Below are positions 12,905 to 48,970 of a stretch of 64,000 nucleotides of DNA, piece by piece. A program made the position numbers and the translations under genes. Source of the stretch: Symbiodinium sp. CCMP2592 (Eukaryota > Sar > Dinophyceae > Suessiales > Symbiodiniaceae); NCBI GenBank assembly GCA_905221615.1, contig CAJNDT010000007.1, forward strand, positions 186,001-250,000, given 5' to 3'. The notes under the pieces were generated by a model that saw nothing but the letters and a program-made list of their open reading frames with translations, was not told the origin of the DNA and searched no databases. The first letter of the stretch is position 1; each line of letters starts with the position of its first letter.

Positions 12905-13825
12905 TGGCACAGGGTTTACAGTTTCAGGGTCTTTAGGGTTTGGGGTTAGAAGGCAGAGTGCCATAGTATTAGGGGTTTGAGGGTAATGAAAGGGTTAGGG
13001 TTAGAGTTTCAGGGTCTTTATTATATTTAGGGTTTGGGGTTAGAAGGCAGAGTGCCATAGTATTAGGGGTTTGAGGGTAATGAAAGGGTTAGGGTTAGAG
13101 TTTCAGGGTCTTTAGTATTTAGGGTTTGGGGTTAGAAGGCAGAGTGCCATAGTATTAGGGGTTTGAGGGTAATGAAAGGGTTAGGGTTAGAGTTTCAGGG
13201 TCTTTATTATATTTAGGGTTTGGGGTTAGAAGGCAGAGTGCAATAGTATTAGGGGTTTGAGGGTAATGAAAGGGTTAGGGTTAGAGTTTCAGGGTCTTTA
13301 TTATATTTAGGGTTTGGGGTTAGAAGGCAGAGTGCCATAGTATTAGGGGTTTGAGGGTAATGAAAGGGTTAGGGTTAGAGTTTCAGGGTCTTTAGTATTT
13401 AGGGTTTGGGGTTAGAAGGCAGAGTGCCATAGTATTAGGGGTTTGAGGGTAATGAAAGGGTTAGGGTTAGAGTTTCAGGGGCTTTAGTATATTTAGGGTT
13501 TGGGGTTAGGAGGCAGAGTGCCATAGTGTTAGGGTTTGAGGGTAATGAAAGGGTTAGGGTTAGAGTTTCAGGGTCTTTAGTATTTAGGGTTTGGGGTTAG
13601 AAGGCAGAGTGCCATAGTATTAGGGGTTTGAGGGTAATGAAAGGGTTAGGGTTGGAGTTTCAGGGTCTTTAGTATATGTAGGGTTTGGGGTTAGAAGGCA
13701 GAGTGCCATAGTGTTAGGGTTTGAGGGTAATGAAAGGGTTAGGGTTAGAGTTTCAGGGTCTTTAGTATTTAGGGTTTGGGGCTAGAAGGCAGAGTGCCAT
13801 AGTTTTAGGGTTTGATAGTATTAGG
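12905..13825. repeat. 92-94 bp satellite, about 10 units, telomere-like and carrying word A
   Basis: Each unit contains TTTAGGGTTTGGGGTTAG, then GGCAGAGTGCC (word A in reverse orientation), then ATAGTATTAGGGGTTTGAGG and AAAGGGTTAGGGTTAGAG. Word starts fall at about 12952, 13046, 13138, 13232, 13326, 13418, 13512, 13603, 13697 and 13788, giving steps of 91-94 bp. Units alternate between TTTAGTATTTAGGG and TTTATTATATTTAGGG linkers. The TTAGGG/TTTAGGG content resembles telomeric repeats, so it could derive from an interstitial telomere tract. Confidence 0.92.
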
Positions 13826-14004
13826 GATGCACAAATCGCGTGAAGTGGCTACGAACTGCTGGAGGTTGCGCTTTTCTGCGTTGACCACACTGTCAAGCGA
13901 ATCACGTGCAGGCGAAGCAGGGTACAGCTGGGTGACGCGACAACGTCTGGCACTCTGCCTTCCCAGCTGCTGGCACTCTGCCTTCCCGCCTCAAGATCCA
14001 TTAA

Positions 14005-14406
14005 TTATTGCCATTCCAACTTTGCACAAAGCTGGTCGGTCAAAGGTATTGCTCCAGCATCAAGGTCAGGAAGTTCCCCCGGACCACCGAGACGGATGGC
14101 AACAAGTGAGAGGGGTTTCATCTGAAGGACAAACTGCCGTTGTTGTTCATCTTCGTCGTTCCAAACATAAACAAAATCACAAACTAGAGAAACGCGCGGC
14201 AACTCCAGCGGTTCTTCTCCTTCACCCACCTGATAACACTTCGGGAAGGGGCCTTCGTACCGTCGAAGAAGCCTGAGGCCTCCTGTAATGCGGGAGCCAA
14301 TACGTGGCCAGTAACGCAGGTAGCGAACCATGATTTCCCAAGGCACGTCGTCATAAACTTCCTTCCATCTCTCAGCTGGTTTCCACTGGTCAGGCGCTTT
14401 GGCCAA
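14005..14406 (-). CDS. unknown protein, probable last exon
   Basis: 133 residues with normal amino-acid composition (WKPAERWKEVYDDVPWEIM, RYLRYWPRIGSRITGG). No family recognised. It is the most downstream piece of the minus-strand series. It may be the final exon of a gene whose earlier exons are at 14771-14950 and 14963-15478; the splice sites are not resolved. Confidence 0.5.
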   Translation of the reverse strand: MAKAPDQWKPAERWKEVYDDVPWEIMVRYLRYWPRIGSRITGGLRLLRRYEGPFPKCYQVGEGEEPLELPRVSLVCDFVYVWNDEDEQQRQFVLQMKPLSLVAIRLGGPGELPDLDAGAIPLTDQLCAKLEWQ

Positions 14407-14770
14407 TTTTTCGCAAGCGGTTTAGATCAAGATTGGGGAGAGCTCGCCTCTGAAGAAACACTCTCCTCGTTCGATCGGGGCGAAATGCATTGCTCTGGAC
14501 GGCTACTGTTCAGTCACAAGCACGCACGGCTTCAAACCACATGTGCTACTTTGTGCGGCTTCCGGGTTGTGGCACTCGAAATGATTGTCCATGTGCTTGC
14601 ACGTGACAAATTCCACATGTGTGAAAATGCGAACATGCTTTCGCAATTCGTCTTCCCCAAGCAGAAACACACAGTCTCTCGGACGCATTCCAATCTAGCA
14701 GGACCCGCTGCCATCAATGCAAGCACACAGACAGACACACAACTTTTCTTTGCAGCGCAGGATGAATCCT

Positions 14771-14950
14771 CTAGTTGTTGCCAGGCCCCCTGGTCGGGCC
14801 ACAACAGGGCCTATGGTCAATGACGTGTTGTCTGGCCTGCGCTTCTGTCATCTTGGAAGCCACACGTCCCCAGTGATAGGGTACGAGGTGGCTCCACTCG
14901 CCTTCAATGCCAGACACACATGGGTTCATGTAATGTGACACAACACACAG
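14771..14950 (-). CDS. possible exon of an unknown gene
   Basis: About 55 residues of protein-like sequence including GEWSHLVPYHWGRVASKM and QARQHVIDHRPCCGP. It lies between two other minus-strand coding pieces. Exon borders are uncertain and the call rests on composition and context only. Confidence 0.35.
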   Translation of the reverse strand: MCVVSHYMNPCVSGIEGEWSHLVPYHWGRVASKMTEAQARQHVIDHRPCCGPTRGPGNN

Positions 14951-14962
14951 CAGATCAGGCAA

Positions 14963-16051: not shown

Positions 16052-18148
16052 TCACTTGGGATGCTGCAACATATAGGATAGAAGTGACACTGAGCTTGTA
16101 GCACAACGACGGAGGCAAATGAAGCCATTCCAGAAGACTGCCTCTGTTTCGATGACTTCCCAATACTGGGGCTCATACAAATGAAGCCAGCAGGCCTTGA
16201 CGCTGGAACCATCCGGGCACTCTGCCTTCAAAACAAAATATATCTCTCCTGTCGACTGGTCCTCATGCTGGACCACTGGCCACATGAGAGCAGCCCAGGT
16301 TTTTGCCCCAAGAGAGAGATAGCATGTCAAATCCAAGACATGGTTAAAGATCTTCAAAGGGGCTGCAAGGCTGCTAAACTTCCCAGCACGCAAGGGAACA
16401 TGCTGAGATGCCAGTCTTGCATCATTGTAGTGAATTAGCCATGACCACGCAGCTGATGCTCGTTCGAGTGTCTCTTCTGACAGGGTGTTCCATGTCTTGT
16501 CGCCGACCATCTCGGTATACTGTGACGGCAGCTTGTGGACACATCCTCTGAAGCACAACTTTTGGCGCTTCCTGTCCACATTCCAAAACTCCCTTTCAAA
16601 ATATTCCCGTTTGACTTTTGCCGGATGCCTGATTGAACGGCTTTCAAAGACGTTTGAATTCTCGATCCCAGTTTGAATCGTGGAGTATGTTTGCTTGCGG
16701 GTTTTGTTCAACAAAGAATCATTACGAATCTTGTTGTGCACATCTTCCACAATCTTGTTGTCTGGCAGCGTCTGCACCAGAACACTCAGCAGGTGGGTTG
16801 CAGGGCATGCTGGTACCGATATTGTTACAGTCCTTTGAGCTGGCACTCTGCACTCTTGCCCGTCTAACAAAATGTCACCAACTCCGGCACCGTCATCTGC
16901 TTCTTCAGGCACAGAATCCTCCATCTCCCCGTCCTGCTCTGTGTCAACATCATCCACGACAATGTCTTCTGACCCCGGAGGCTCCACTTCATATCCCTGT
17001 GCCTCCAATGTGTCCAGAAAAAGTCTCGAAGGATGGCTGATTCCAACTTGCAGGTCTGTGAAGAGTTGCCGGGCATGAACACTTGGAGTGGACCGTGCCA
17101 ATGTCGACTCCAACCTCAAGAGTGATGTGTGATGGCCCTTTGCCTTCAAAGCCGTGATCGTCCGAATTTCTGCATCAGTTGACAGCAATCCCGCATAGGC
17201 ATCTGGTGGAAGTGAAAAAAGACTGCAAGTCCAGACCCTGTTCATCAGCAAATGCAAGCTCAACATCATGATTTTTTCTGCGGGCTCGTGTAAATCAGTA
17301 TCCAGATGCTCCTTCCACAACTCGGTCTTCTGCAGGTTGGAGACAATCTGCAACAAATGTTTGTCTGCTTTCCAGGCATCATTCACTGTCATCAACTCGG
17401 CATAACCTCGACCATCCTGCGGCGATTTAACGTTTTTTACTTGTTTCCCATACCATGTCCACAACGGTTCGGTCACTTTGTACAATATCTTGGAGTGATC
17501 GAAAAGGTCTTCTGTCATGAGATAGTATGCCAACTTGAAGCCCCCCATGCTGGCTTTCAACAAGCTGAGTTCTTTCCGTGGATCAGTGGCACGACCAGCC
17601 TGTGACAGCTTTTGCAAATCACCCAGTGCATCTTCCTGCCTCTCACCATTGTCAGAGTCCGGCACTCTGCCTTCGGACTCTGGCACTCTGCCTTCGAAGA
17701 GCTCCTTGCCCGATTGTGTATTCGCCGAGTTGGAATACAGGCTGAGTCTTTCCCTTGAGCAAGGGCTGAAAGATTGATCTTCACCGAAATGATCAGCCAG
17801 CAGCATTTTGAGGACATGAAACTCATGAAGTTGCTCACAACATAGCTGGTTCCAGCTGAACCATCTGGAGGATTTCACCAAGCTGCCCTTCTTCATGAAG
17901 GATTCGACATTTGCAAGCATATGTTCAATCTCATGCTCGTCACCGGATAGCTGCCTGTCTAAGTCATAGGCAATCTTATCTCGAAAAGCGTCCCACAACA
18001 AGCTTCTGCTCGGTGATGTGCAGGAAACAAAACTCGCCAGCATTTCCTTCTTCTGCTGGTAGAAACCACCACTTCCAAAGGGTTTATAATTCAGGGCAAG
18101 ATGTAAGAGGAGTGAAGTTGTGCTTTCAGGAAGAGTCCTTTGAGGCAT
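16052..18148 (-). CDS. C-terminal part of a large unknown protein (possible transposase-like)
   Basis: 698 residues of normal composition with no domain I can name with confidence. The N-terminus contains ALNYKPFGSGGFYQQKKEML, the middle has an acidic linker with word A translations (EGRVPESEGRVPDSD at 17660-17700, 21 bp apart), and the C-terminus has AALMWPVV and EPQYWEVIETEAVFWNGF. The first ~20 residues overlap the end of the upstream frame (18091-18924), which lies in another phase. The two are most simply one protein of about 950 residues split by a frameshift near 18.12 kb. See the findings for the transposase idea. Confidence 0.6.
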   Translation of the reverse strand: MPQRTLPESTTSLLLHLALNYKPFGSGGFYQQKKEMLASFVSCTSPSRSLLWDAFRDKIAYDLDRQLSGDEHEIEHMLANVESFMKKGSLVKSSRWFSWNQLCCEQLHEFHVLKMLLADHFGEDQSFSPCSRERLSLYSNSANTQSGKELFEGRVPESEGRVPDSDNGERQEDALGDLQKLSQAGRATDPRKELSLLKASMGGFKLAYYLMTEDLFDHSKILYKVTEPLWTWYGKQVKNVKSPQDGRGYAELMTVNDAWKADKHLLQIVSNLQKTELWKEHLDTDLHEPAEKIMMLSLHLLMNRVWTCSLFSLPPDAYAGLLSTDAEIRTITALKAKGHHTSLLRLESTLARSTPSVHARQLFTDLQVGISHPSRLFLDTLEAQGYEVEPPGSEDIVVDDVDTEQDGEMEDSVPEEADDGAGVGDILLDGQECRVPAQRTVTISVPACPATHLLSVLVQTLPDNKIVEDVHNKIRNDSLLNKTRKQTYSTIQTGIENSNVFESRSIRHPAKVKREYFEREFWNVDRKRQKLCFRGCVHKLPSQYTEMVGDKTWNTLSEETLERASAAWSWLIHYNDARLASQHVPLRAGKFSSLAAPLKIFNHVLDLTCYLSLGAKTWAALMWPVVQHEDQSTGEIYFVLKAECPDGSSVKACWLHLYEPQYWEVIETEAVFWNGFICLRRCATSSVSLLSYMLQHPK

Positions 18149-18924
18149 CTCGACATGCTGTTTTTGAAATCTCGAATGGCCCTGTGAATCTTGTCACATT
18201 TCACATGAATCATGTTTTCACGCATAGCATAGGCCATGCCAGCAAGTCCGATGCTGCCCTGGTCAAGGCCCAAGACCAGCAGTGGAATGTTCAGCCACCA
18301 CTTCTCTGACTCTGGCAAGACGGGGAGCACATTTGTGATCTCTCCATCCTCAGACATTGTCTTCAGAAAGGAGACATGAGGAAAAGCTGGTGGCACTCTG
18401 CCTTCTGGCACTCTGCCTTCTGGCACTCTGCCTTCAGCCGGATCCGGATTGTCCCTCAACCACTGAAAACAGCGGTCAATGTCATTGTCTTCTTTTCCAA
18501 CTTGGAAAACCACCCTGCTTTCATATCTTTTCACAGGCCTCTGCCCAAGAGAGGGGGCGATCTTGAAAGAGCCCAAATCCATTCGCCCTCTGTGCAAAAT
18601 CCAGATTTGGTGACTGATCGCTTGAAGCTGCCTGAATGCAGCAATCCTTTCCAGCTTCTTTCGCTTTGATATGTGAAGAAGCAGGTCGTCGTCAAACCGG
18701 TCTTGTGGAGAAACTTGTCCAGTCTTCATCACTTGCATGGGTGCAAACACTGCAGCAGAAATCTCATTCGCCCAAGCCACTGTCACAAGACAATCGCTGG
18801 TGCTGTGAGTAGACCCATCGGCGATGAAGTTGATTTGTCGACAGTGCTGCATAGCAGTGATAGCTCTCTCCTGGTACAACCGATTGATTCGAAGCTGCCA
18901 CTCGTCACAGCTGGACTCAGGCAC
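18091..18924 (-). CDS. N-terminal part of the same unknown protein, with D-containing motifs
   Basis: 277 residues. Two segments look like beta strands ending in Asp: INFIADGSTHSTSDCL (Asp about 36) and IPLLVLGLDQGSIGLAGM (Asp about 221), followed by HVKCDKIHRAIRDFKNSM. This order recalls RNase H-fold transposases, but the resemblance is weak. A triple word A gives EGRVPEGRVPEGRVP (18391-18440, exact 15-bp period). The 5' end has a splice-acceptor-like CAGCTCAG just upstream of VPESSCDEW, so an earlier exon probably exists. The exon at 22045-23097 is the candidate, with the repeat-filled 18.9-22.0 kb as intron. Confidence 0.55.
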   Translation of the reverse strand: MPESSCDEWQLRINRLYQERAITAMQHCRQINFIADGSTHSTSDCLVTVAWANEISAAVFAPMQVMKTGQVSPQDRFDDDLLLHISKRKKLERIAAFRQLQAISHQIWILHRGRMDLGSFKIAPSLGQRPVKRYESRVVFQVGKEDNDIDRCFQWLRDNPDPAEGRVPEGRVPEGRVPPAFPHVSFLKTMSEDGEITNVLPVLPESEKWWLNIPLLVLGLDQGSIGLAGMAYAMRENMIHVKCDKIHRAIRDFKNSMSRCLKGLFLKAQLHSSYILP

Positions 18925-19039
18925 ACCTGAGCTGGCAAGTCAAAGAGCGATCGATTCGTTCGCTGCAATCGTTGAGATACAAAAGTACAACTTGGACTTC
19001 AACACTATGCGCAAGCAACACCATTCTTCGGCCTCCCAT

Positions 19040-19260
19040 GGAAGAGCTTGGGTCACCGAGGCTACGTCATTTTCGGGAGGGGCCACCTGGCACGTTAGCG
19101 CATGTGTCCAGATGTCATAGCCAGATGCCCGCTGGCCGTTGGCCCCAACCCCCCCCTAGACTGCGGGACCCCAGTGCCCTTGCCCTCGCTCCACACCCGG
19201 CCAACAGTGTGTCGGTAGCTGCCAAAATTGGCGGGCATGCAGCTGCCGCTTGGTAGAGCA
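19040..19260. ncRNA. structured repeat, copy 1
   Basis: Stem ACCTGG (19085-19090) with CCAGAT (19108-19113): five of six pairs are Watson-Crick, enclosing the loop CACGTTAGCGCATGTGT. GTCAT follows. A second pairing is possible between GTTGGCC (19138-19144) and GGCCAAC (19199-19205). Strand of any transcript is unknown. Confidence 0.55.
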
Positions 19261-19504
19261 ACATACACCAAACCCCATTCTGAACATGTTGGCACTCGTG
19301 ACAAACACAACCGAACAGCAAGCCGAGCAAGGTTCTCTGCTCAATAAGACAACCATGTCCCAAGAACGGACGGCCTCCCTTCTTTGTTCGGAACCTGGAA
19401 GTCTGGCCCGGACAACACGATCCGAGGTCGCAGAAAATCCAGCTAGGTAAGGCAACCTTGAGGAGGTTCGACTGACACTCTAATTACTGTACTTCTGCTC
19501 GATA

Positions 19505-19735
19505 TTTGGCCTCCCATGTTGCTGAGGTGGACACTCGGGTGCCGAGCTCGGACCCAGCCAGCACGTTGGCATATGTGTGACTGGCTGTCATCACCAGGTG
19601 TCCGCTCTGGTGGTTGGCCCCAAGTCCTCGATCGGTTCCTTCTTCCGCGGTCCGCCAGAGCGACCCCATGCCCGGCCATCGGCATGCAAGCGCGGCTGGT
19701 GAATCAAAACTGGACACACCGCGACTTGTTGGTAA
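19505..19735. ncRNA. structured repeat, copy 2
   Basis: Stem AGCCAG (19556-19561) with CTGGCT (19581-19586), six of six pairs, with a longer 19-nt loop starting CACGTTGGC. The second pairing, GTTGGCC (19613-19619) with GGCCATC (19674-19680), has one mismatch. Confidence 0.55.
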
Positions 19736-19739
19736 GGTT

Positions 19740-19798
19740 GGTGTGACAAAGAATTCACTATAATCTTAAACAACTGGCTAACAAAACAACATTCTACT
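19740..19798. repeat. 55-bp direct repeat, left copy
   Basis: From GTGTGACAAAGAATTCACTA through CTTAAACAACTGG to AACATTCTACT. The same sequence, with a two-base deletion and a C/T change, recurs at 21984-22040. The pair brackets about 2.2 kb of repeat DNA. Confidence 0.8.
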
Positions 19799-19849
19799 AT
19801 GAATGAGACGGAGGAACACACCAGCTCAACAACACAGCCATGTCCCAAG

Positions 19850-20100
19850 AACGGCCTCCCTTCTTTGTCCGGTATTGCTTCCGGTGACTTGCATGACTGC
19901 TTCGATGTCACCAGGTCACAGCCCCAGCCGGCGCATTAGCCCATGTGCCCGGCTGTCATCTACCCCCTGCCCCTGGGATAGGTTGGCCTCAAGGCTGTGA
20001 CACAGGCAAACCGAACGCCTCACACATGGCCAATGGTGTGGGGAGCAACCCTGGTGGGGCAGGGGTTTACTCCTTAGGTAAGGCAACACCGAAGAGGTTC
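19850..20100. ncRNA. structured repeat, copy 3
   Basis: Stem AGCCGG (19926-19931) with CCGGCT (19949-19954), six of six pairs; loop CGCATTAGCCCATGTGC. Second pairing GTTGGCC (19982-19988) with GGCCAAT (20028-20034), ending in a G-U wobble. Downstream are a GGGGAGCAACCC block and GAGGTTCGACTGGC, which leads into a double word A. GGTTCGACT resembles a Pol III B box, which would fit a SINE. Confidence 0.55.
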
Positions 20101-20629
20101 GACTGGCACTCTGCCTCGGCACTCTGCCTCTGTCGTCGATCCAAGAGAACAGAAAGCATGTGCTCAGCAGAAAGAGATATAGCCTAATCATGGGTTAGCG
20201 GCCTCCCCCATTTGCTGAAATCCACCCCACTCGGCCAAGGTGGGTCGCCATGCTCACAGGGAAATTAAGATGCCAGCGCTGTGCCGGATCCCGTCGCAGC
20301 TGTTGCTCAGCAGGCCATTGGCACACCTGCGATGTAACAGATCCCGGAGACTTGGTTTGCTTCGGCGTAAACATCGCCCGCAACGCGCCGATAGAAACAA
20401 ACCAGGCACAGGCTAACATCACCACCGTGAGTAGCAGGCTCAAGGCACAGCTGGCGGCTGGGGTAGTGGTAACTTACAGCAGGATGCTATGCTGCCACTA
20501 CAGTTACAGGCCATGCCAAACGATCAACGATAGACCTGATCCCAGGGCCACTTGCGCGCAAAAGTGAGCACAGGCAAGAACTGAAGAAGGCACTATCTCA
20601 CCCTTCTCTTTACAACACAACTCAAGCGG

Positions 20630-20870
20630 CCTCCCTTTTAGGATCTCACCGGGGGGGGAAGGACACACCCGCCCCCCATTTAAGCCACCCCCAGCAGGCG
20701 CATTAGCGCATCGCCCTGCTGTCATACCCCTCGGGCTGTAGGGGAGTTGGCCCCAAGGGTGGCCGCCACGAGGCCACGCAGGCGTCAGTGGCCAAGCTTT
20801 CAGCTCCGGATGGATCGCTGCCCCCAACACGGCCAACAAGATGGAACCTGGCAGGTCTCTAGGGCCCCCT
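20630..20870. ncRNA. structured repeat, copy 4
   Basis: Stem AGCAGG (20693-20698) with CCTGCT (20715-20720), six of six pairs; loop CGCATTAGCGCATCGC. Second pairing GTTGGCC (20746-20752) with GGCCAAC (20831-20837). Confidence 0.55.
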
Positions 20871-20934
20871 CGGCCAGCCCGCTGCTCAGGTTTAGGTCGG
20901 GCAAGCGAATCGACAAGGACGTTTATGATCAAAA

Positions 20935-21590
20935 GCAAGCACAGCAAACCACTAAACCCTACTAAAAAACCCTTAGAAGTTTTACTGGCACTCTGCCTTT
21001 GGCACTCTGCCTTTCATAAATTTGATCACAACCTGACACTTAATGACTACTCACTCGATTCGGCCTTCCATGTTGCGCACTCGGTCGATCAACAGTTCAA
21101 GAGCCTCCCCTGCTGCCACCGAGTGGGTCATCATCTCGCACTGACTACTGGCTAGCCAGAGCGTGCAGAGACATAAATGGGGGGCTCCCAGCAGGCACGT
21201 TAGCCCATGTGTCCTGCTGTCATAGGGATCTGGTCAGCAGATCCCCGTTGGCCTCAAGAGCCCGAAAATCCCAAACAGCGGCCCGCCACACCCGGCTAAC
21301 GGTGTGAACTACAAGCTGCCCTGCACTAGCGAACCCTCAGGGAAGTGACCCCGGCTAATGGTGTGCGACTATAAGTTGCCCTGCACTACGTTCTTCCCTC
21401 AGAGCCCTGTGCGAGACACAGCGAGTCCTGGGTAGCGGCCACACACATGCCTCCACATGCCGGCAAGCGAATCGACAAGGATTTTCTGATCAACAGCAAG
21501 CGCAGCAAACCACTAAACCCTGAACCCTTAGAAGTTTTACTGGCACTCTGCCTTTCATAAATATTAAATGCACAACCTGACTTAAGCATC
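20935..21590. repeat. two copies of a ~90-bp repeat differing by one word A
   Basis: About 20935-21040 and 21485-21580 share GCAAACCACTAAACCCT, CCCTTAGAAGTTTTACT, word A, TTTCATAAAT and CACAACCTGAC. The first has two words (20987 and 21001, 14 bp apart); the second has one (21542). Confidence 0.8.
21175..21400. ncRNA. structured repeat, copy 5
   Basis: Stem AGCAGG (21190-21195) with CCTGCT (21213-21218), six of six pairs; loop CACGTTAGCCCATGTGT. Second pairing GTTGGCC (21247-21253) with GGCTAAC (21294-21300), using one G-U pair. The tail segment CCGGCTAACGGTGTG is repeated at about 21352 as CCGGCTAATGGTGTG. Confidence 0.55.
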
Positions 21591-21983
21591 CCTTTCTGTA
21601 ACGGCCTCCCCGGCGTCTTTGCAAAGACGAACGTGCTCTGACAGTCATGCGGACCGGAGACTTAGGCCACCCCCATTCGGCCGAGATATGGGGTCACCCC
21701 GCTCTGCCATGGGGATATCAGGCGAAGGCTCTCAACGACCACTAGCAGCTGCAAGCATTTGCCCGCGCTATGCTTATGTCGCCCTCTGCTCGCAAAGAAG
21801 CAGGACGTCGTGGTCGTCGTGGTGCCATCCCAGAGTTCGCAGCGGATACTTCTGCCCCCGACATTACCTTCTGCTGGACTTGGCCAACAGCTTGGCGCAA
21901 GAGCCGAACGTCGGGTCGGCCATGGCAAGAGCGGTAGTCGAATTTAGTTCGACTGTGGCGCGGGTACGTGGCATCAAATGAAT

Positions 21984-22040
21984 GTGTGACAAAGAATTCA
22001 CTAATCTTAAACAACTGGTTAACAAAACAACATTCTACTC
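21984..22040. repeat. 55-bp direct repeat, right copy
   Basis: Partner of 19740-19798. It ends a few bases before the stop codon of the minus-strand coding piece 22045-23097. The left copy may have been captured from here, or the two may mark a duplication. Confidence 0.8.
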
Positions 22041-22044
22041 CATA

Positions 22045-23097
22045 TCAAATCACCAAGGAACCATGCAGGTCGCTGCGTTCGTCCTGGTTCTTGAGAATGA
22101 GGGCTTGTCGCAAAGAGGTCCCACTTTTTGCAGCGCCCTCTAGCAACTTCCAGATGCTTTTGATGTCCACAGTCTTTTTCAATGGAACACGCTTGCCCAG
22201 AAGTGCCCTGCGAGACGTCACAGGCACACCAGCATCATGTACACTCAAGTAGTGCCCAATGACATACACCTGGAGGCCGGCTGACAATGTCTCGGACAGA
22301 CACTCATGTATGTGCATGAAGGCATTCAAGACTGTCTTGGCAAATCCATGAGCCTGCCCCGACGGTTGAAGCGCTCTGTGTTTTTTTGCCATGGTTGCAA
22401 AGGCGATGATGTCGTAGATGCTAGTTTCAACCTCCTCCCAATCTCGTGGCACTCTGCCTTCAGATTCATCTCGGAGAGATGAAGACAGCGTCCTTGCATT
22501 GAACATAGATTCCCAAAGCTGACGCAAAGATCGGGACGTGTTGCCTGCCAGCGACTTCATCATCCAAGCGGCAAAGCCTGACACCAACCCAGCTGATTGA
22601 AGAAACCATGACACTCTGCCTTCATCCAACTGCATGACCAGAGGCTCATCACTGATAGTTTCACACACACGTACCATAGCATCCTTCAGTTTGCTCTTGT
22701 ACCATTCCCTGTGGGCGTCTGTCCTTGTGTCGAAGGATGCTTGCAACATGAATCGGGCCAAGGCTGTGGAAGATGCCACATCCTCCTGCACAGCATCAGG
22801 GTTTGGCACTCTGCCTTTTTGACTTTGCACATGTGACCCCCAGTTCGCAGCCAAGGGGGTCTTCCTGAGAAGATCACTGAAGAAGTTGTACCATTTGTGG
22901 TACTGTCGACGTTCTGAGCCGTTCCTGTTGCTCTCATCGAAAAACAAGTCCAGACGCCACCACAGTTCGCCCTGTGAGAGCCAAGCTGCTCTCGCTGGCA
23001 GTTTTGCATCATTTTCCAAGTTAAGCAATTGCCCATCACGGAGCAATAGCATGACCCACAGTTTCAGAAGCATCACCGAAATCCTCCAAAGCAACAC
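22045..23097 (-). CDS. unknown protein, probable exon
   Basis: 350 residues of normal composition, Trp- and Arg-rich (WLSQGELWWRLDLFFDE, QYHKWYNFFSDLLRKT). Word A is read as KGRVP, DEGRVSW and SEGRVPRD, all in one phase. The C-terminus has QVYVIGHYLSVHDAGVPV. No family recognised. It may be an upstream exon of the protein at 16052-18924, with which it shares strand, word content and style. The first residues (MLLWRISVMLLK) may lie upstream of the real exon start. Confidence 0.55.
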   Translation of the reverse strand: MLLWRISVMLLKLWVMLLLRDGQLLNLENDAKLPARAAWLSQGELWWRLDLFFDESNRNGSERRQYHKWYNFFSDLLRKTPLAANWGSHVQSQKGRVPNPDAVQEDVASSTALARFMLQASFDTRTDAHREWYKSKLKDAMVRVCETISDEPLVMQLDEGRVSWFLQSAGLVSGFAAWMMKSLAGNTSRSLRQLWESMFNARTLSSSLRDESEGRVPRDWEEVETSIYDIIAFATMAKKHRALQPSGQAHGFAKTVLNAFMHIHECLSETLSAGLQVYVIGHYLSVHDAGVPVTSRRALLGKRVPLKKTVDIKSIWKLLEGAAKSGTSLRQALILKNQDERSDLHGSLVI

Positions 23098-23653
23098 TGT
23101 ACTTGAATCTTACTAAATACTGACACACACCTGCACTTGTGTAACAAGCCCCAGTTCACAACACATTGAATTCTTAAGAAATCAACCCAAAGACTCACGA
23201 TGACATGTCAGCAGCCACATCATGTCACTCGAACTTGAGACAGGAAACTATCGCAGATGGCACTGAACTGACAACCACATGGAATGATTAACACAGGCCA
23301 CCGATGCCTGCAACTGGAGGTCGAGACACCAGCCAGGTCATTGCCACCTGCACGACAGCAGCATACGAACTGAGACAATACCGACAAACACATCTGATCA
23401 CGGAGTGACTGAAGCTCTCTACATTTTCATTGCACAGCTGCACCAGCTCGGATCACTCAGATCCTTCCACGAGGCGGCGAGGATTTTCCTCGGCACCTCG
23501 TGGAGGGAACGGACGGGGTCCAGGGCTCAACCCAGTCCCAACATTGGAAAGCAGAATACCAACAAGACAGAATGTCGAAAGATGAAGCAAGCTCATTTAA
23601 CTCTAGAGAATTATGGCACTCTGCCTTATTGGCACTCTGCCTTCAGCTACAAT
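23098..23653. other. gap between minus-strand genes
   Basis: No gene seen. Two word A copies at about 23614 and 23630, 16 bp apart, lie just downstream of the methyltransferase-like gene. Confidence 0.5.
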
Positions 23654-24727
23654 TCATGTTGGGACATCACTCATCATATGAAAGGCCACAGCCTTGCCGA
23701 ACTCCGGGGTGTACTCCTCTGACACCTGAAGATCTTCAGGACGACCGGTGAACTTCTCACCATCTCGATCAACGCAACCAGCACTTCCTCTGACATGGGA
23801 AGGATAGCTGCGCCGCATACCATTGATGTGCTGACAGTTGCTCCACAGTTGAAGCGGTTTCAGGATGGGCTGGCCGAAGGCACCACCATAGGTTTTGACC
23901 TTCATAGCCTGGATCATTCCCATGACACGATCGACGAGTGGAATGTCGAACAGCATGCTGGAGCAAGGCTGCTCGATCACAAACCGGTTGTCATTCAAAG
24001 CCGCGAGCAAAGTCAACAGCAGCGTCACATACATGAAACGATTGCCTTCTTGGCATGCCAGCGATCGCTCAGGTTCTCCCATCCAGTCATTGGCAATGGA
24101 CCTTCCAGTACTGTATTTACAGAGTTGGACGAAGGAAGAGCATGGAGTTCCAAACCACACCAGGCCGTGTTTGTGTGTTTGACACACAGCATTGACAGCC
24201 AGGCGAAGTCCTCTCACAGAAAGAATATCATGATCTGTGCCGTACCTGATGTCCAAGGCTAGCCCCTGCCAGCCAGCACGGAGCATCTCCCGACTGAGGT
24301 TGCCCTGCCCTGCAAAGATCTCCAGGAAGTGGAACCTGGCACTCTGCCTTATGTTCCGCTTCCAATGACAAAAGTTGATGAGGAATCTCATCTGTTTCTT
24401 CCATGGCCACGAAGTCATGATGGGAAAAGTTTCTGATAACATTTGTTGCCAGATTGATATCATCCAGGAAAACCCACTGGCTTCAAGAATCACATCATAG
24501 TTGCACTCAGGCAGAACTTCATAAGGACCTTCATTATGGAACTCCAGAAGCGACGGGTCAACTTCGCAAAGGCGCAGAACATCCTGTCCTCTCGAAATGG
24601 CCAAGAATCTCTTCTCCAGTGCGATGTTTGCATCAAACTGCCGCCGAATGTCTGCTAACAGTCTTCTTCTTGTTTCAGTCGGGTCATCTGCTGCTGCAGA
24701 CATGGCACTCGACATTGCATTGTCCAT
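23654..24727 (-). CDS. cytosine-C5 DNA methyltransferase-like protein
   Basis: About 357 residues from the ATG at 24727. A Rossmann-type SAM-binding strand, FHFLEIFAGQGNLS, matches motif I (FAGQG about residues 138-142). FGTPCSSF carries the Pro-Cys of motif IV (about 195-198), where the Cys would be the nucleophile. FVIEQPCSSML sits where motif VI (normally ENV) is expected, and EYTPEFGKAVAFHM resembles motif X. Spacing and the missing ENV make it a divergent member. Activity on DNA is not shown; it could be a related methyltransferase. An in-frame word A gives IRQSAR just before motif I. The ATG itself overlaps a word A variant (AGTGCCATGG). The upstream neighbour is the proline-rich gene. 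Confidence 0.7.
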   Translation of the reverse strand: MDNAMSSAMSAAADDPTETRRRLLADIRRQFDANIALEKRFLAISRGQDVLRLCEVDPSLLEFHNEGPYEVLPECNYDVILEASGFSWMISIWQQMLSETFPIMTSWPWKKQMRFLINFCHWKRNIRQSARFHFLEIFAGQGNLSREMLRAGWQGLALDIRYGTDHDILSVRGLRLAVNAVCQTHKHGLVWFGTPCSSFVQLCKYSTGRSIANDWMGEPERSLACQEGNRFMYVTLLLTLLAALNDNRFVIEQPCSSMLFDIPLVDRVMGMIQAMKVKTYGGAFGQPILKPLQLWSNCQHINGMRRSYPSHVRGSAGCVDRDGEKFTGRPEDLQVSEEYTPEFGKAVAFHMMSDVPT

Positions 24728-25114
24728 GGCACTCTGTCCTATCCGCAAGAAAGTGTAACACCTTAACCTCAAGGGTGTTCGAATTAACAACGTAATTGTG
24801 AACCAGCACATTCAGCAGTTGACACACTTGTGAGTCGATTGATCCATCACAACACAAGGATGAGACAGACATGATGCAATCACTCGTTGAAATTCACATG
24901 TGGCATAGTTGTTGCAGACCATGACTTCATGCTCAAGCAATCAAATACAGCACTGCCAGACCCTCACTCGATTCTCGTTTTTCTGGTACCGCACACAGCA
25001 GTCCATCCATATCACTCGACGATTGCGAGACCACCGAGGTGGCAGCCACTTGTCAGGCAGATTCTGCACTGGCACTCTGCCTTCTATGCAGTCTTTGCTG
25101 GTGAGCTAAAATAA
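24728..25114. other. intergenic stretch between minus-strand genes
   Basis: No gene seen. It contains one word A copy at about 25071 and a word-like GGCACTCTGTCC at 24729 touching the methyltransferase start codon. Confidence 0.5.
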
Positions 25115-31823: not shown

Positions 31824-31837
31824 GTGGCACTAGGGCT

Positions 31838-36273: not shown

Positions 36274-36459
36274 GGAGATTAGCTAGCCGAAGGCTAGAGT
36301 TCTTCTCCGGGCTAACGCGGGACTTCGCCACAACGCTAAAAAGAGAGAAGTTCGTGTTGTCCGTGCTACTGCGTGAAGCCAGCTAGCCTAAGCTAGGCTT
36401 GCTACGTACTCCCCGGAGGTGTAGAGGGAGGTGGCGGGAGGATACGCTAGCTAGTGTAC
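36274..36459. repeat. 186-bp direct repeat, first copy
   Basis: From GGAGATTAGCTAGCCGAAGG to GCTAGCTAGTGTAC. It differs from the second copy (36704-36889) at a single visible position (CTAGCCTAAG versus CTAGCTTAAG). The 244-bp spacer between the copies holds no gene. Confidence 0.95.
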
Positions 36460-36703
36460 GCACTCGTGCCGAGGGACGAGGTACGACAGTGTATGCTAGC
36501 GCCAGTATCCCTTTGGGAAACATCTAAGGTGTTTCGCTAGAAAACGTCGAAGGGGTTTTCCTCTGAAGCTAAACAGAACGAAGCTTGTCTGTTTGCTAGA
36601 GTGTCTGCACATGGCCGGTGAAGCAGTGCTACTCCGTGGCCATTGTGCTGAAAGGCCCCCAGCTATTGGGGGGCAAATTTCGAGTGCCCACCCAACCCAC
36701 CCT

Positions 36704-36889
36704 GGAGATTAGCTAGCCGAAGGCTAGAGTTCTTCTCCGGGCTAACGCGGGACTTCGCCACAACGCTAAAAAGAGAGAAGTTCGTGTTGTCCGTGCTACT
36801 GCGTGAAGCCAGCTAGCTTAAGCTAGGCTTGCTACGTACTCCCCGGAGGTGTAGAGGGAGGTGGCGGGAGGATACGCTAGCTAGTGTAC
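36704..36889. repeat. 186-bp direct repeat, second copy, at the element end
   Basis: Ends in GTGTAC at 36889, directly followed by TTCTGCAGGAGG, the first base pairs of duplication copy 2. In copy 1 the same host sequence is preceded by GGTCAC, so two bases (AC) are shared at the junction. Confidence 0.95.
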
Positions 36890-40642: not shown

Positions 40643-41350
40643 TCTGCCTTGCTCTGCCGGCGGCTGGCACTTTTAGCACGGGATTCGGCTCGGGATCTGG
40701 CACTCTGCCTTGCTTTGCCGGCGGGGGACCCATCGGCTCTGGCACTCTTGGCGGGGGATTCGGCTCGGGATCTGGCACTCTGCCTTGCTTTGCCGGCGGG
40801 GGACCCATCGGCTCTGGCACTCTGCCTTGCTTTGCCGGCGGGGGACCCATCGGCTCTGGCACTCTTGGCCGGGAATTCGGCTCGGGATTCGGCTCATCGT
40901 CATGCCAGGCATCGTATTCGTCCTGGATGACGGGCATTCTGGCCGTTCTGCCCCAGCGATGTTGCTGCTGCTGGTGGCCAGGAGGAGGATGAGCTGGTTG
41001 CACCGGCCCCTGCCAGGAGGAGGATGATCTGGTTGCACCGGCCCCCTGCCAGGAGGAGGATGATCTGGTTGCACCCTGCCAGGAGGAAGTGGTTCCCACT
41101 CCTGCTGCCAAGGGTGATCAGGCAGAGGCCCAGCATTTCGCAGCGGTCTTGCTGGCACCTGCCACGGAGCAGGAGGCCTCGCCTTTTGCTGAGGCGGTTG
41201 ATGCAAAGGCGGGCGGGCCCCCCTGGGAGGAGTCCCATTGATGTATTGCTTCCTTTGCCTGGCACTCTGCCGTCTACTGGCACTCCTCCTTTCATCCCTT
41301 TGGCTTTTGCAGTCGCAGATCCAGGGGGATCCCAGGGAGGTGTCGAATCC
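40640..41350 (-). pseudogene. proline-rich linker with 42-bp repeats
   Basis: In the best frame it reads NGTPPRGARPPLHQPPQQK, PPGRG and QPDHPPPG repeats, VIQDEYDAWHDDEPNPEPN, then EPMGPPPAKQGRVP repeated four times (42-bp period) with DPEPNPPPRVP inserts. Frames change near 41270, next to a word A copy, and near 40670. It connects the kinase-like part to the acidic part. Minisatellite growth seems to have used word A as part of its unit. Confidence 0.5.
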
Positions 41351-42651
41351 CAACACTGAGGTGGCGGAGGATTCGGCGGCGCAAGTGCCTGCGGCTGAAT
41401 TCTGCTCATTACTGCCCTTGTTGCCTCGACCCTCATTTGCTGGCATTGTTGCATCAAGTCCAGACCATGCTGGAACTTTGCTTCCAGATTCTTGCACAAC
41501 TTGTACAGATCGGTCACCATTTCACCAGTTCTCCACTTATTCGGTCCATAGTCCGTTTTGAATTTTTCGCCAGCGGCAAGCATCTTCTTCCAGACCTCTG
41601 ACGCGTACTCGGAGACGGTGGCGCTGTGGTTTGAGGGAATGGCCCACAAGCTCAGAAAGCGGTTGAGGTGACCCTTCATCCTTTTTGCGGGAACAGCCAT
41701 AACTGGTAGGCAACCGGAGCAGTCCACCAAGGCAAACGTCAAATTCTCCGCCCCCACTGGCACTCTGCCTTTGTGGTCCGGCACTCTGCCTCCCATGACA
41801 GTAATGTTATTCTCATGGAGGTCCCCAAGAAGACTCCCTTCCTGCCTAAGGGTATGCATTTGTAGCTTCAAGACAAACTTGAACAGCTTGAAGAGGATCA
41901 GCATGGTCTCTTTCTCTGGGAACTTGATTGGGTCGGAAAACCTCTGGTTGAGGAAGGCTCCCACAGTCGTCCCTTCGCCTTTGGCTTCTGTGACGATCAC
42001 CGATTTTCTCATCCGCGGTGCCACTACGCCCGAGGCATGGGTGACCAAGGTTTTCAAGTCGAAAGCGAGCGGGACAGGAAACGATTGCCAGTGGGTTGTG
42101 AACATTCGAGATTTCAGAAAACGCCAGTCATATTGGTTTCCACACTCTTCTTCATCCTTTGCGAGTACCCTGTGCAGCTTGACACAGAGGTGCACCTGAT
42201 CTGTCGGATGATCGAAGTCCAGAGCATCTTCAGGAATAGAATCCACCAGTTTCAGGGCATCTGCTGCGACTTCCGAGTCTTTGAGGACTTCGGCACTCTG
42301 CCTTTCAGACCGAGGAATCCTGAGCTCGCGCAGAAGCTTCAGAATGTCGATGACCCACGGCTGTGGGATCTTCGCAATCATTGAGTCCCGATTCATTCCA
42401 TGACCGACGTATTTCCATTCACACTTGCACTGTTTGAATCCTTGCCCGCCTCTCACGCGGAATTGCAGGCGGACCTCACCGAAGGCTGTGACATAGTATT
42501 CTAGAGGTTTTTTGTTCGGCAAGGGAAAATTCCCACCCATCTGCAAGGATCCATCCAGCTCTTGTTCGTAAAACTCAGAGGTGATGTTGCCGGCTCGCAC
42601 ATTGGCCCAAAACGTCTGACCAAGCGGACTCGTATGCACAGGCGCTGTCAT
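40900..42651 (-). CDS. protein kinase-fold-like protein, copy 2
   Basis: Start ATG at 42651 (MTAPVHTSPLGQTFW); the open frame reaches 40900, although the part beyond about 41270 is probably out of frame. The kinase-like core lies in residues 210-320: SVIVTEAKGEG as a hinge-like strand, LLGDLHENNITVMG as a catalytic loop (Asp and Asn of the HxDxxxxN pattern), and FALVDCSGC in place of DFG. Between loop and VDCSG two in-frame word A copies encode GRVPDHKGRVP. A clear ATP-binding Gly loop and Lys are not identified, so it may be a pseudokinase or a small-molecule kinase relative. Substrate unknown. Confidence 0.6.
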   Translation of the reverse strand: MTAPVHTSPLGQTFWANVRAGNITSEFYEQELDGSLQMGGNFPLPNKKPLEYYVTAFGEVRLQFRVRGGQGFKQCKCEWKYVGHGMNRDSMIAKIPQPWVIDILKLLRELRIPRSERQSAEVLKDSEVAADALKLVDSIPEDALDFDHPTDQVHLCVKLHRVLAKDEEECGNQYDWRFLKSRMFTTHWQSFPVPLAFDLKTLVTHASGVVAPRMRKSVIVTEAKGEGTTVGAFLNQRFSDPIKFPEKETMLILFKLFKFVLKLQMHTLRQEGSLLGDLHENNITVMGGRVPDHKGRVPVGAENLTFALVDCSGCLPVMAVPAKRMKGHLNRFLSLWAIPSNHSATVSEYASEVWKKMLAAGEKFKTDYGPNKWRTGEMVTDLYKLCKNLEAKFQHGLDLMQQCQQMRVEATRAVMSRIQPQALAPPNPPPPQCWDSTPPWDPPGSATAKAKGMKGGVPVDGRVPGKGSNTSMGLLPGGPARLCINRLSKRRGLLLRGRCQQDRCEMLGLCLITLGSRSGNHFLLAGCNQIILLLAGGRCNQIILLLAGAGATSSSSSWPPAAATSLGQNGQNARHPGRIRCLA

Positions 42652-42780
42652 CCTGCGGCACTCTGCCTTGTCCAGCCAGATTGCGGCACTCTGCCTTGTC
42701 CAGCCAGATGCAGGCACTCAGCCTTCTCAGTCCAGCTCAAGGCACTCTGCAAAGAATGGCGAGGCGGCACTCTGCCTTAT
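42652..42780. repeat. cluster of word A upstream of the kinase-like start, copy 2
   Basis: Five words or close variants at about 42656, 42685, 42713, 42741 and 42764 directly 5' of the minus-strand ATG at 42651. Confidence 0.75.
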
Positions 42781-45283: not shown

Positions 45284-46591
45284 TCAACTGTACGTGTGCA
45301 GCTCATCCTGCATTTCCAGCAGTGCTTCAATCATGTACTCACGATCCCGGAATGGAGCATAGTAGGCTCGGTGGTTGATCCACCTGACAATGGCTTGTTC
45401 CATGGTCATCGAGGCAAAGGCCATGACTAGGACACAATAAGCAGCACAGGTCCTGTTAATGCCACCGTAGCAATGGACAAGCACACGAATTGGCCTCTTC
45501 TTGCCTCCACGCTTCCGACCACCTCCCTGAAGCTTCATCGCCTCCAACAAAGCAAGAGCATTACCGAGCTCACCAGGGAATGTCTCATCGGCCACCTTCA
45601 AGGCACTCTGCCTTCCATCGGCACTCTGCCTTCCTTCAGCGGCTCTTCCGAACAGGCTGCCCATGTCACTTCCCTTGCTGAAGCCCTTGTCATAGGAGCA
45701 GCCATAGCCAAATGAGCCCTTCGTCGATGCCTTCTGGCTTTGCATGTGATTGGAAACCTGACAGGGGCCGCTGTAGCCCTTGCTGATTGTCTTGCCCTTG
45801 CCCCTGCCGCCATTGGCCTTGCCCATCATTTTGCCCTTGATGGCACTCTGCCTTTGACTCTGGCTGAACTCCTCTGCTGAGCGCTGCCAGCACATCATAA
45901 TCTTTCTGAAATCTGAAATGAGGCGGCGCCAAATGCTCTTGAACTCATGACTTCTTTGTTCAGCATCAAAGTCATTGGCATGTGTTTGATCCCAGCCACC
46001 ATACCGAAGATGTGCAGTGCCAAACGGTCCACAATTCGCCAAATACTGATACCAGTCCCATGGCTCAAAATTCCGAGGTCTGTCATCTGCATTCATAGAG
46101 ATGACAATGTCAGGCTTGACCCGGAGCTGGTCATATCGGATCGGGCAACCAATACTGCCAACAAACAGTTGCCACTGGGGATGGTCGTAAATCAAAACAT
46201 CATCCATGGGCCACGTCTCGACATCATGCTGGCATGGCCGAGGTGGCGGGATCGACCCAGGCAGCACATCTGTCTGGCCGGTCCATGCTTTGTACAACTT
46301 CATATCCATATCTCCGAAATCTGAGATGGCCTCAACTGCCAATTTGATTCGTTGATCCAATTGTGCAGCCCTTTGGATCTTTCGGAGCCCGGTGGTATAG
46401 TCGGCAGCTGATCTGCCACAGTGTAAACAATTCCACCGAAGTTGTTGCACGGCTTCGTTCCAGTAATCACTGCCAAGGTCAATGTGATTGGCCTGATTCT
46501 GATGGTCAGCAGCAGAACTCTGGCACTCTGCCTCGGAACTCCCTGAGCACCTTGAAACGGTCGTCGGCATCACTGCTTTCATCGAGCACAC
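45284..46591 (-). CDS. dual-specificity phosphatase-like protein
   Basis: 435 residues. The C-terminus contains the cysteine phosphatase P-loop, RVLVHCYGGINRTCAAYCV (HCxxGxxRT; Cys about 374, Arg about 380), followed by helix-like sequence with EQAIVRWINHR as in DSPs. The N-terminal 250 residues are unfamiliar, with NCLHCGRSAADY, PWDWYQYLANCGPFG and RRLISDFRKIMMCW. A Gly/Lys-rich linker lies between, containing words read as RQSAIKG and GRQSADGRQSALK (18 bp apart). The usual general-acid Asp loop is not obvious, so activity is uncertain. The first residues (MCSMKAVMP) lie in a sequence that is duplicated at 47440. Confidence 0.65.
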   Translation of the reverse strand: MCSMKAVMPTTVSRCSGSSEAECQSSAADHQNQANHIDLGSDYWNEAVQQLRWNCLHCGRSAADYTTGLRKIQRAAQLDQRIKLAVEAISDFGDMDMKLYKAWTGQTDVLPGSIPPPRPCQHDVETWPMDDVLIYDHPQWQLFVGSIGCPIRYDQLRVKPDIVISMNADDRPRNFEPWDWYQYLANCGPFGTAHLRYGGWDQTHANDFDAEQRSHEFKSIWRRLISDFRKIMMCWQRSAEEFSQSQRQSAIKGKMMGKANGGRGKGKTISKGYSGPCQVSNHMQSQKASTKGSFGYGCSYDKGFSKGSDMGSLFGRAAEGRQSADGRQSALKVADETFPGELGNALALLEAMKLQGGGRKRGGKKRPIRVLVHCYGGINRTCAAYCVLVMAFASMTMEQAIVRWINHRAYYAPFRDREYMIEALLEMQDELHTYS

Positions 46592-47025
46592 AATTGTCCA
46601 ACGATTAAAACATTAACAGTGACTAATGCATCACTATACAGTACATTAACCAATGATATGTAACATTGTGTTACTACTGTTACATCAGTATGAATGAATC
46701 ACTTGATTCCCTGGCCGGCAGATGTCGATCATGTATGGTGCAAGGCAACTCACTGACAGACTATGCAGGCAGGCAGGCAGCCAGCCTCGGAGACAGCAGG
46801 GTCCTGAGGACATCACTGCCACCCGGCACTGTGTAGTCAGCATGTCATGCTGGGTAACCTTTTTGAATCCAAGTTGCGCACACTACCGCTGAGGTCTCAA
46901 ATCGGACAGTCTAGCTCTGCTGGCGAGATCGTCGAATTCAAAATCCTCTAAGCACACGCAAACCCGGCACTCTGCCTTCCCCAACATCCGTAATACGGTC
47001 TCGGAGGCTGTACAAACACGACAAA

Positions 47026-47379
47026 TCATTGATTCAGTGACGACACAAATTCGTCTGACACATTGTAATGTAAAATTCCTGGCACTCTGCCTTGCCGCAC
47101 AAATCTCGGAACGAGTACGCACAGGATCATGTCATTGATATGCCAGTCTACTTGCAAGACTTGCCCACGCTCTTCAGAATTCAGAAACATCCACAATGTC
47201 GAAAAGGACTCCTCTAGCAGCTCGTCGAAATAAATCACATAATCATCGTCGTCAAAACTGTCCGCGACCGAGCCCACAAACGAACCCCCAAACGCCGCAG
47301 TGCTTGCAAACTCGCCAACAGCCAATAAGTCCGAGACCGAGCCCAGAGACTCACTGTCACTCCACGACATCGACCACAT
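47026..47379 (-). CDS. small acidic protein, paralogue 1
   Basis: 117 residues. Ser/Asp-rich N-terminus (SMSWSDSESLGSVSD, VADSFDDDDYVIYFDEL), then a conserved core FSTLWMFLNSEERGQVLQV and a C-terminus RQGRVPGILHYNVSDEF in which word A provides GRVP. Paralogue 2 keeps the frame and most of these residues although the DNA differs by several indels of 3n, which supports real coding. No known family. Confidence 0.6.
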   Translation of the reverse strand: MWSMSWSDSESLGSVSDLLAVGEFASTAAFGGSFVGSVADSFDDDDYVIYFDELLEESFSTLWMFLNSEERGQVLQVDWHINDMILCVLVPRFVRQGRVPGILHYNVSDEFVSSLNQ

Positions 47380-47907
47380 CTGCCGGCTTGCACGGAGGCC
47401 TACTACGACTTAGACTAGAGACAGAGCAGGTCGTCGGGATCACTGCTTTCATCGAGCACACTTCAATTGTCCAAAGATTAAAACATTAACAGTGACTAAT
47501 GCATCACTATACAGTACATTAATCAATGATATGTAACATTGTGTTACTACTGTTACATCAGTATGAATGAATCACTTGATTCCCTGGCCGGCAGACAGAT
47601 GTCGATCATGTATGGTGCAAGGCAACTCACTGACAGACTATGCAGGCAGGCAGGCAGGCAGCCAGCCTCGGAGACAGCAGGGTCCTGAGGACATCACTGC
47701 CACCCGGCACTGTGTAGTCAGCATGTCATGCTGGGTAACCGTTTTGAATCCAAGTTGCGCACACTACCGCTGAGGTCTCAAATCGGACAGTCTAGCTCTG
47801 CTGGCGAGCATCGTCGAATTCAAAATCCTCTAAACACACGCAAACCCGGCACTCTGCCTTCCCCAACATCCGTAATACGGTCTCGGAGGCTGTACAAACA
47901 CGACAAA

Positions 47908-48246
47908 TCATTGAAGCAGTAACGCCAGAAATTCGTCTGACACATTGTAATATAAAATTCCTGGCACTCTGCCTTGCCGAAAATCCCGCCGAAGTCTCGG
48001 AAAGAGTGTGAACATGATCTGCTCATTGACAGACCAGGCTACTTGCAAGACTTGCCCACGCTCTTGAGAATTCAGAAACATCCAGAATGTCGTAAAGCAC
48101 TCCTCTAGCATCGTGTCGAACGGAATCACAGAATCATCGTCGTCAAAACTGTCCGCGACCGAGCCCGCAGTGCTTGCACCCTCATCGTCAACCAGAACCC
48201 AGTCCGAGCCCAGAGACTCACTGTCACTCCACGACGTCGACGACAT
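47908..48246 (-). CDS. small acidic protein, paralogue 2
   Basis: 112 residues (MSSTSWSDSESLGSDWVLVD). The core FTTFWMFLNSQERGQVLQV and the end RQGRVPGILYYNVSDEFL match paralogue 1. It lacks a ~12-residue stretch in the N-terminus and has two extra residues before RQGRVP. Function unknown. Confidence 0.6.
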   Translation of the reverse strand: MSSTSWSDSESLGSDWVLVDDEGASTAGSVADSFDDDDSVIPFDTMLEECFTTFWMFLNSQERGQVLQVAWSVNEQIMFTLFPRLRRDFRQGRVPGILYYNVSDEFLALLLQ

Positions 48247-48293
48247 CTGCCGGCTTGCAGGGGGGCCTACTACGACTTAGACTTGAGACAGAG

Positions 48294-48600
48294 CAGCTGT
48301 AACACGACTATAGTAGATTACGCAGGGCAACAGCGAGCACAACTGCTGCAGCGGCAAGTTGCGATACATGACACGCTCACTGACTATGCAAGGCAGCTTG
48401 TCCTCTGCGATGGCAGCATGTCCTCAGGATCCTCGTCATGAGCCTCGGTGCCAGGACTGTACCATAATAATGGAAGTAGCTGAAGCAAGCTGATGCTGAG
48501 ATCCCAGCAGTTGGCATCCACTTCTCGATGGGCTGGAAGCCGATGAAGACCGATGGGAGAGAAGGAAATGGAAGAGAAGGCGTTCACTAGGCTTGGATTC
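48294..48600. other. spacer
   Basis: No gene seen; mixed sequence between the tandem duplication and the next structured repeats. Confidence 0.4.
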
Positions 48601-48970
48601 AAACCGAACACTTAGACCTGGCCAACGGTGTGGGGAGCAACCCCGATGGGGCAGGGACTTAAGTAAGGCAACCTCGAGAGGCTCGACTGGCACTCTGCCT
48701 CTGTCGATCCAAGTCGCAAGGCTCCCTAACTAACGTGACAAGCATGGATGGCCTCCCCTCCTGGTTGGGAGAAAAATAAAAAAGCCACAACCACTGGACC
48801 ACCCCACCCAGCACTTTAGCCCATGTGCCCGGGTGTCATATGCCACTGCCCTGGCACGTTGGCCCCAAGGCGGTCCAGGTACCATCGACAACACCTGACA
48901 CCCGGCCAACGGTGTCCACGAACCGAGATGGGCAGTCGATCCGTGTGGGTAAGGTGGCACTCTGCCTCTG
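48600..48970. ncRNA. structured repeat, copy 6
   Basis: Starts with the tail of a preceding unit (GGCCAACGGTGTGGGGAGC, then GGCTCGACTGGCACTCTGCC). The stem is ACCCAG (48805-48810) with CCGGGT (48828-48833): five of six pairs. Loop CACTTTAGCCCATGTGC. Second pairing GTTGGCC (48857-48863) with GGCCAAC (48904-48910). Word A follows at 48957. Confidence 0.55.

Follow-up and report, generated by a model that had tools for sequence, protein, structure and literature searches.

A window of 64,000 nucleotides from the dinoflagellate Symbiodinium sp. CCMP2592 (contig CAJNDT010000007.1, positions 186,001 to 250,000, forward strand; 'the window' hereafter means this whole stretch) carries a single insertion of a giant, high-copy DNA transposon that is bounded by terminal inverted repeats (TIRs), encodes a hAT-like DDE transposase and is strewn over most of its length with one 11-bp inverted-repeat word, GGCACTCTGCC. 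We put at about even odds (roughly 0.5) the reading that this word is an element-wide recognition site, which would change by lineage and is written through coding sequence; its binding is what we infer from the pattern of copies. A broader proposal, which we hold more tentatively, is that giant hAT-like transposons of dinoflagellates may label their whole length with a one-orientation inverted-repeat password read by a putative element-specific factor, and that the set of words would be replaced in each lineage with many of the places that hold them (loops, introns and spacers) being kept.

The word and its confinement to one transposon insertion

The window holds 95 exact copies of GGCACTCTGCC (85 on the forward strand and 10 on the reverse), all between 12,952 and 48,966, against a mean of 0.09 and a maximum of 1 in dinucleotide shuffles. 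The initial annotation had described about 90 exact copies, confined to a territory of some 36 kb, nearly all in one orientation and with a chance expectation far below one, and each of these statements was borne out for the 11-mer; the figure of about 90 is not true of the 15-mer TGGCACTCTGCCTTC, because that has just 23 forward and 8 reverse exact copies. One-mismatch forms number 9 on the forward and 3 on the reverse strand, and two of them lie outside the territory, one at 57,284, which had already been reported, and a second at 3,667, which had not. From 13,816 onward, 85 forward copies (13,949–48,966) stand against a lone reverse copy at 26,395, and the remaining nine reverse copies all fall inside one 94-bp tandem array with TTTAGGG-like units near the left end of the element (12,932–13,815, reverse strand).

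These copies are not all independent, because the territory holds internally duplicated segments (28.3–34.4 versus 36.9–44.3 kb, 46.6–47.4 versus 47.4–48.3 kb, and smaller ones). Contexts that are unique on both sides surround 54 of the 85 forward copies, and their consensus is cT-GGCACTCTGCC-TTc, in which the core is invariant by construction, exact copies having been aligned, and the edges are graded (before the word, T in 40/54 and C in 10/54; after it, T in 51/54 and then T in 46/54). Of the window's top-ranked 9- to 12-mers, simple repeats aside, GGCACTCTGCC and the words overlapping it are alone in this dispersed behaviour.

The territory is one element of 37,182 bp (12,465–49,646) that lies within the open reading frame (ORF) of a long interspersed nuclear element (LINE). 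Homology between the window and a second copy of the element, on contig C1 (L087, L088), starts at 12,465 and stops at 49,646, give or take flanking A/T. These ends carry TIRs of 53 bp (12,465–12,517, forward, and 49,594–49,646, reverse; 45/53 positions identical) and are enclosed by TTAAA target-site duplications (12,460–12,464 and 49,647–49,651, both forward). The duplication of the C1 copy, read as ATATA from the element ends, is ambiguous because it sits in an AT repeat. When the flanks of the window insertion are joined with one TTAAA (3 kb joined), a LINE protein frame of 870 aa stays open across the junction; the two LINEs between which the territory had been placed by the initial annotation are therefore one LINE, interrupted by a 37,182-bp insertion. 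Its left part (8,868–12,459, forward) has endonuclease and reverse transcriptase (RT) regions (RVT_1, E 2.7e-22; the endonuclease match is below its cut-off). By domain scan and flank joining, the ORF to the right of the insertion (49,652–50,759, forward) continues into a UCH (ubiquitin hydrolase) domain, a LINE–peptidase fusion.

Within the element, a nested retroelement stretch (34,358–36,887, including an assembly gap of 100 bases) has no exact word, although about 5.8 would be expected in its 2,430 readable bases (P = 0.003; 0.018 when clusters are counted), and no exact word occurs in the 26,818 bases that flank the element in the window. A host territory and local gene conversion are both ruled out by these two absences. 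The suggestion of the initial annotation that the pattern reflects a self-propagating micro-element or local conversion thus stands in part: a short unit, no longer than about 16 bp, does recur in one orientation amid unrelated contexts, but the territory did not arise by local spread or conversion, as its ends are the TIRs of a transposon flanked by a 5-bp target duplication, its nested retroelement is free of words, and GGCACTCTGCC is present in the other fetched copies of the element (at least 100 times in the C1 copy). Within the element, the word may once have spread as a micro-element.

Across the genome assembly searched (1,098,105,373 bp), GGCACTCTGCC occurs 10,552 times forward and 9,890 times reverse (20,442 in all), compared with 126 and 118 (244) for a reversed-pattern control, and the TIR core occurs 269 and 341 times (610), compared with none for its control. 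The genome-wide count, which the initial annotation had named as a check against uniform density, was run in part. All of the at least 100 forward words listed are on contig C1, with none among the matches listed in its first 1,148,044 bases and then, from 1,148,045, at least 100 in 39.5 kb, where an even density would give about 11 (forward strand only, and if the matches run in contig order, as appears). A 651-bp internal segment gave 284 first-look genome candidates, and all 40 that were scored are 100% identical as rounded. The first 100 TIR places include 33 neighbouring pairs in opposite orientation, 10 of them 4.1–6.7 kb apart, 4 of them 11–17 kb and 19 of them 24–59 kb. All 11 testable transposase places lie inside a TIR pair, as do all 11 testable places of the element's second gene family; on those contigs, two more transposase places and three more of the second gene have no listed pair. 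The element is present as hundreds of whole or partial copies.

Coding sequence, transposase affinity and repeated motifs of related elements

The word runs through the genes of the element. Both transposase exons contain it (six and two copies), five copies lie in the 3.1 kb between them, and 52 of the 85 forward words fall in reverse-strand ORFs of at least 150 aa, which cover 54% of the span and include some conserved proteins and others that may be spurious. The word is read there as GRVP (27), RQSA (12) or AEC (13), and the other 33 copies are outside long ORFs. Because it is read in three frames, the word of the window lineage is a DNA-level feature. A peptide-level motif (an EGRVP linker) is ruled out for this lineage by the three frames, by the words outside ORFs and by the frame-shifted readings of P0007, of which there are eight, six fitting the word (shuffle mean 2.5; 0/100 shuffles as high).

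The C-terminal exon (16,052–18,939, reverse) is that of a Hermes-like DDE transposase; its frame is broken here into two overlapping ORFs and is open over 950–962 aa at the other genome places listed. The N-terminal exon (22,045–23,109, reverse) is 22% identical to P0020 (E 2e-12, a single comparison), and the sequence between the exons (18,940–22,044, reverse) is a probable intron, judged from the flanking exons. The transposase has a Hermes-like RNase H/DDE fold. Three acidic residues are conserved among its relatives (D3 in 23/24, D164 in 26/26, E665 in 18/19), which may correspond to the catalytic D, D and E positions of Hermes, the fit being one of alignment ranges. A Pfam hAT domain is matched by none of the 27 transposase relatives, sequence searches against solved structures gave nothing useful, and an AF2 model from nine sequences (pLDDT 42.9) was too poor and was not used. 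The target duplication is not the 8 bp of hAT elements but 5 bp in the window (TTAAA), and a 5-bp duplication is described for the hAT5 group (PMC12730594).

Transposase relatives of other lineages contain other repeated peptides: GVVP three times in P0013 and five times in P0018, QGVLP five times in P0014 (to which the best scored match in the Symbiodinium genome itself is 49% identical), HGTVP/HGIVP in P0016, LAATQG three times in P0025, and in P0024 LAPAQG four times, LAPAQS once and PCASAG twice. The motifs of P0013, P0014 and P0016 are mostly in the loops that carry EGRVP in P0009–P0011. When the 39 motifs of nine proteins are mapped onto the P0014 model, 25 fall in its low-confidence loops, which make up 18% of its residues with a 3-residue margin, and five more are in insertions; three near-alike GRVP proteins supply 12 of the 39. 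On a tree of 23 relatives, which leaves out four fragments and in which near-copies favour clustering, the six motif labels need five changes, the minimum, and 0/200 shuffles are as low; GVVP and LAATQ, each taken alone, are not clades. In P0024, LAPAQG and SPCASAGQ, the latter occurring twice, appear to fit one DNA string, CCTTGCGCCAGCGCAGGG, a near inverted repeat deduced by hand from the codons. Matches in viral contigs, one in each of 58 stretches for this deduced word and one in each of 48 for GGCACTCTGCC, were taken as chance.

The second gene family of the element is represented by a conserved ORF of 605 aa (40,903–42,717, reverse), whose words are read as GRVP, RQSA and AEC, and by a second copy, partly deleted (31,736–32,767); no relative was confirmed in viral contigs. 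Eight element ORFs scanned gave no Pfam match to PolB, retroviral-type integrase, protease, ATPase or capsid. Two reverse-strand ORFs of the element, also without a Pfam match, are reminiscent, by one motif each, of a dual-specificity phosphatase (45,284–46,612, HCYGGINR) and a cytosine methyltransferase (23,654–24,811, GTPCSS). The nested retroelement (34,458–36,889, forward) has RT/RNase H-like ORFs and 186-bp direct repeats at 36,274 and 36,704 that are 99.5% identical, and it adjoins the gap of 100 N; we take it to be DIRS-like from its motifs, the sole profile match being a weak one to RVT_3 (E 0.17). Beyond the insertion, a long ORF (53,402–54,838) contains a KptA/Tpt1 RNA 2'-phosphotransferase domain.

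Retention of the word and competing explanations

If GGCACTCTGCC is a recognition site, a putative element-specific factor, encoded by the element or acting via its transcripts, would recognise full-length elements by their densely spaced words of one orientation, and this recognition would keep such elements expressed or unsilenced. The word and the putative factor would change together in each dinoflagellate lineage, and related elements would therefore differ in their words, although the same permissive loops would often hold them. The retention of the word is consistent with such a role. In duplicated segments that are 1–5% apart, all 21 word pairs are exact, and 0/231 word columns differ compared with 120/6,447 columns elsewhere (p = 0.022). 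When diverged copies of the element are included, 1/88 word columns vary compared with 332/3,569 others (p = 0.004).

Several observations weigh against this reading. Among recent close copies the word columns vary to much the same small extent as the others (1/88 versus 51/3,566, p = 1.0; in a second region, 1/99 versus 158/4,724, p = 0.38); left out of these column tests were L071 in the first (with diverged copies), six rows in the second (close copies) and L094 in the third (second region). The confinement of the word to the element is sampled and not proved genome-wide, and the word-free short element described below is one case, half read. At least 12 of the 27 transposase relatives have no repeated motif, and the motifs of P0024, P0025 and P0029 are mostly at places other than those in P0009–P0014. 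The frame-shifted test does not clearly beat shuffles outside the GRVP group (shuffles as high, of 100: P0013, 8; P0014, 74; P0018, 42; P0024, 19; P0025, 77; P0029, 100), so the words there might be peptide motifs, and a DNA-level word outside the window's own lineage is not proven. The case of P0024 rests on the two occurrences of SPCASAGQ and their apparent fit to the same DNA as LAPAQG.

A neutral origin, in which a functionless micro-repeat unit of 13–16 bp spreads within the element by slippage, tandem duplication and repair template switching and owes its purity to recent amplification, is in our estimate rather unlikely. Local tandem gain and loss, as it predicts, is observed: a 15-bp unit is missing at 18,392 and a 14-bp unit is extra at 21,540, each in 2 of 31 rows, and a 262-bp tandem duplication begins at a word. 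The near-identity of the 40 scored element places and the lack of constraint on words among recent copies also agree with it. A further site, 19,291, has the full word in 11/31 rows and a broken word, GGCACTCGTG, in 20/31, the window included, which may reflect partial loss; clean empty sites of single words were not seen in the 60 loci compared among element copies. However, the 54 unique contexts have unrelated flanks, 85 of 86 words share one orientation, the paralogous pairs remain exact at 1–5% divergence, and certain other lineages carry different motifs in the same loops.

We give a small chance to a signal at the RNA level, by which GGCA-GAG-UGCC hairpins in sense transcripts would bind a putative processing, export or translation factor. 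The word has the orientation of the conserved genes over 35 kb, and it folds by itself into a hairpin with a 4-bp stem and a 3-base loop, but this hairpin is weak (−2.9 to −4.4 kcal/mol), 33/85 words are outside long ORFs, and the strand bias would equally suit DNA sites, as the VANC motifs also share one orientation (PMC5735166, available text). No known RNA or tRNA family was matched at the thresholds used.

One element of 5.0 kb has the same TIR, and its terminal 335 bp are 91.5% alike to the giant element; it shows no exact and no one-mismatch word in the 2.6 kb read, about half of its length. The absence of words from that half argues, on this one case, that the word would serve full-length elements, in expression or protection, and would not be needed for the cut-and-paste step. 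It is hence very doubtful that the words are internal transposase-binding sites, expanded from hAT subterminal repeats and required for mobility: words reach to 0.5–0.7 kb from both ends, the left-end words are in opposite orientation and the BED domains of Hermes do bind short repeats in the subterminal region (PMC10368747, available text), but the words are spread over the whole 35 kb instead of being gathered near the ends, and 10 of the 33 TIR pairs are of the size of this short element, the one among them that was read.

Two side observations concern this short element, on C102 (stretch L178, C102:812591–813990). The ATAAGATTCA repeats at 26,613–27,038 of the window match its interior (L178 1066–1400) in inverted orientation with up to 99% identity (253 bp), and the lone reverse word at 26,395 might be due to a nested short element. 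L178 also contains a looser repeat resembling GGACACCCCTTGCG, which is read three times as GHPLR and is possibly another word.

Relation to known systems

If the recognition-site reading is true, a selfish element has a recognition code written into its own protein-coding genes and renews every copy of it per lineage, and the escape of selfish DNA from control in dinoflagellates becomes testable via the binder of the word. As to DNA modification in such genomes, repeats of Breviolum minutum are enriched in the modified base 5hmU (PMC11071213). Repeated GRVP, RQSA and KAEC in predicted dinoflagellate proteins would then be seen as transposon marks rather than protein motifs. No published account of GGCACTCTGCC or its element was found in the literature on dinoflagellate repeats, introners, giant transposons, hAT elements and recognition motifs, covered by titles and the starts of abstracts with most subscription papers and bioRxiv preprints outside, and papers matching the letters of the word in either orientation are unrelated by their listings.

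The following comparisons draw on the available parts of the cited papers. Like Polintons/Mavericks and other giant transposons (PMC6431247), the element is bounded by TIRs, tens of kilobases long and equipped with several genes; unlike Polintons/Mavericks, it has a Hermes-like transposase, and no polymerase, protease or capsid was matched in the eight ORFs scanned. Dinoflagellate introners (PMC11453091) are likewise many short insertions in dinoflagellate genes, but they create introns across host genes, whereas the word is 11–16 bp, is translated in exons and belongs to one element family as sampled. With hAT elements (Hermes, PMC10368747; hAT5, PMC12730594), the element shares the transposase fold, the TIR and, as in hAT5, a 5-bp target duplication, and it differs in its size of about 37 kb, its several genes, its long imperfect TIR and the lack of a Pfam hAT match in the 27 relatives.

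The closest parallel to our reading is offered by the VANC motifs of VANDAL (MULE) transposons in Arabidopsis, where a protein of the element binds the motif and thereby removes silencing (PMC5735166). A VANC-like reading is suggested because GGCACTCTGCC has a strict core, graded edges, one orientation and high density, and is element-specific as sampled and apparently lineage-specific. A binder is known for the VANC motifs and none is known here. The VANC21 motif is 9 bp long and lies mainly in non-coding regions of VANDAL21 (PMC5735166), whereas most forward copies of the present word are in long ORFs. In the VANDAL elements, as here so far as sampled, the motif is dense, same-oriented and element-specific; here, however, it is an 11-bp inverted repeat, it is spread over 35 kb of a hAT-like element, and it crosses the coding sequence in every reading frame.

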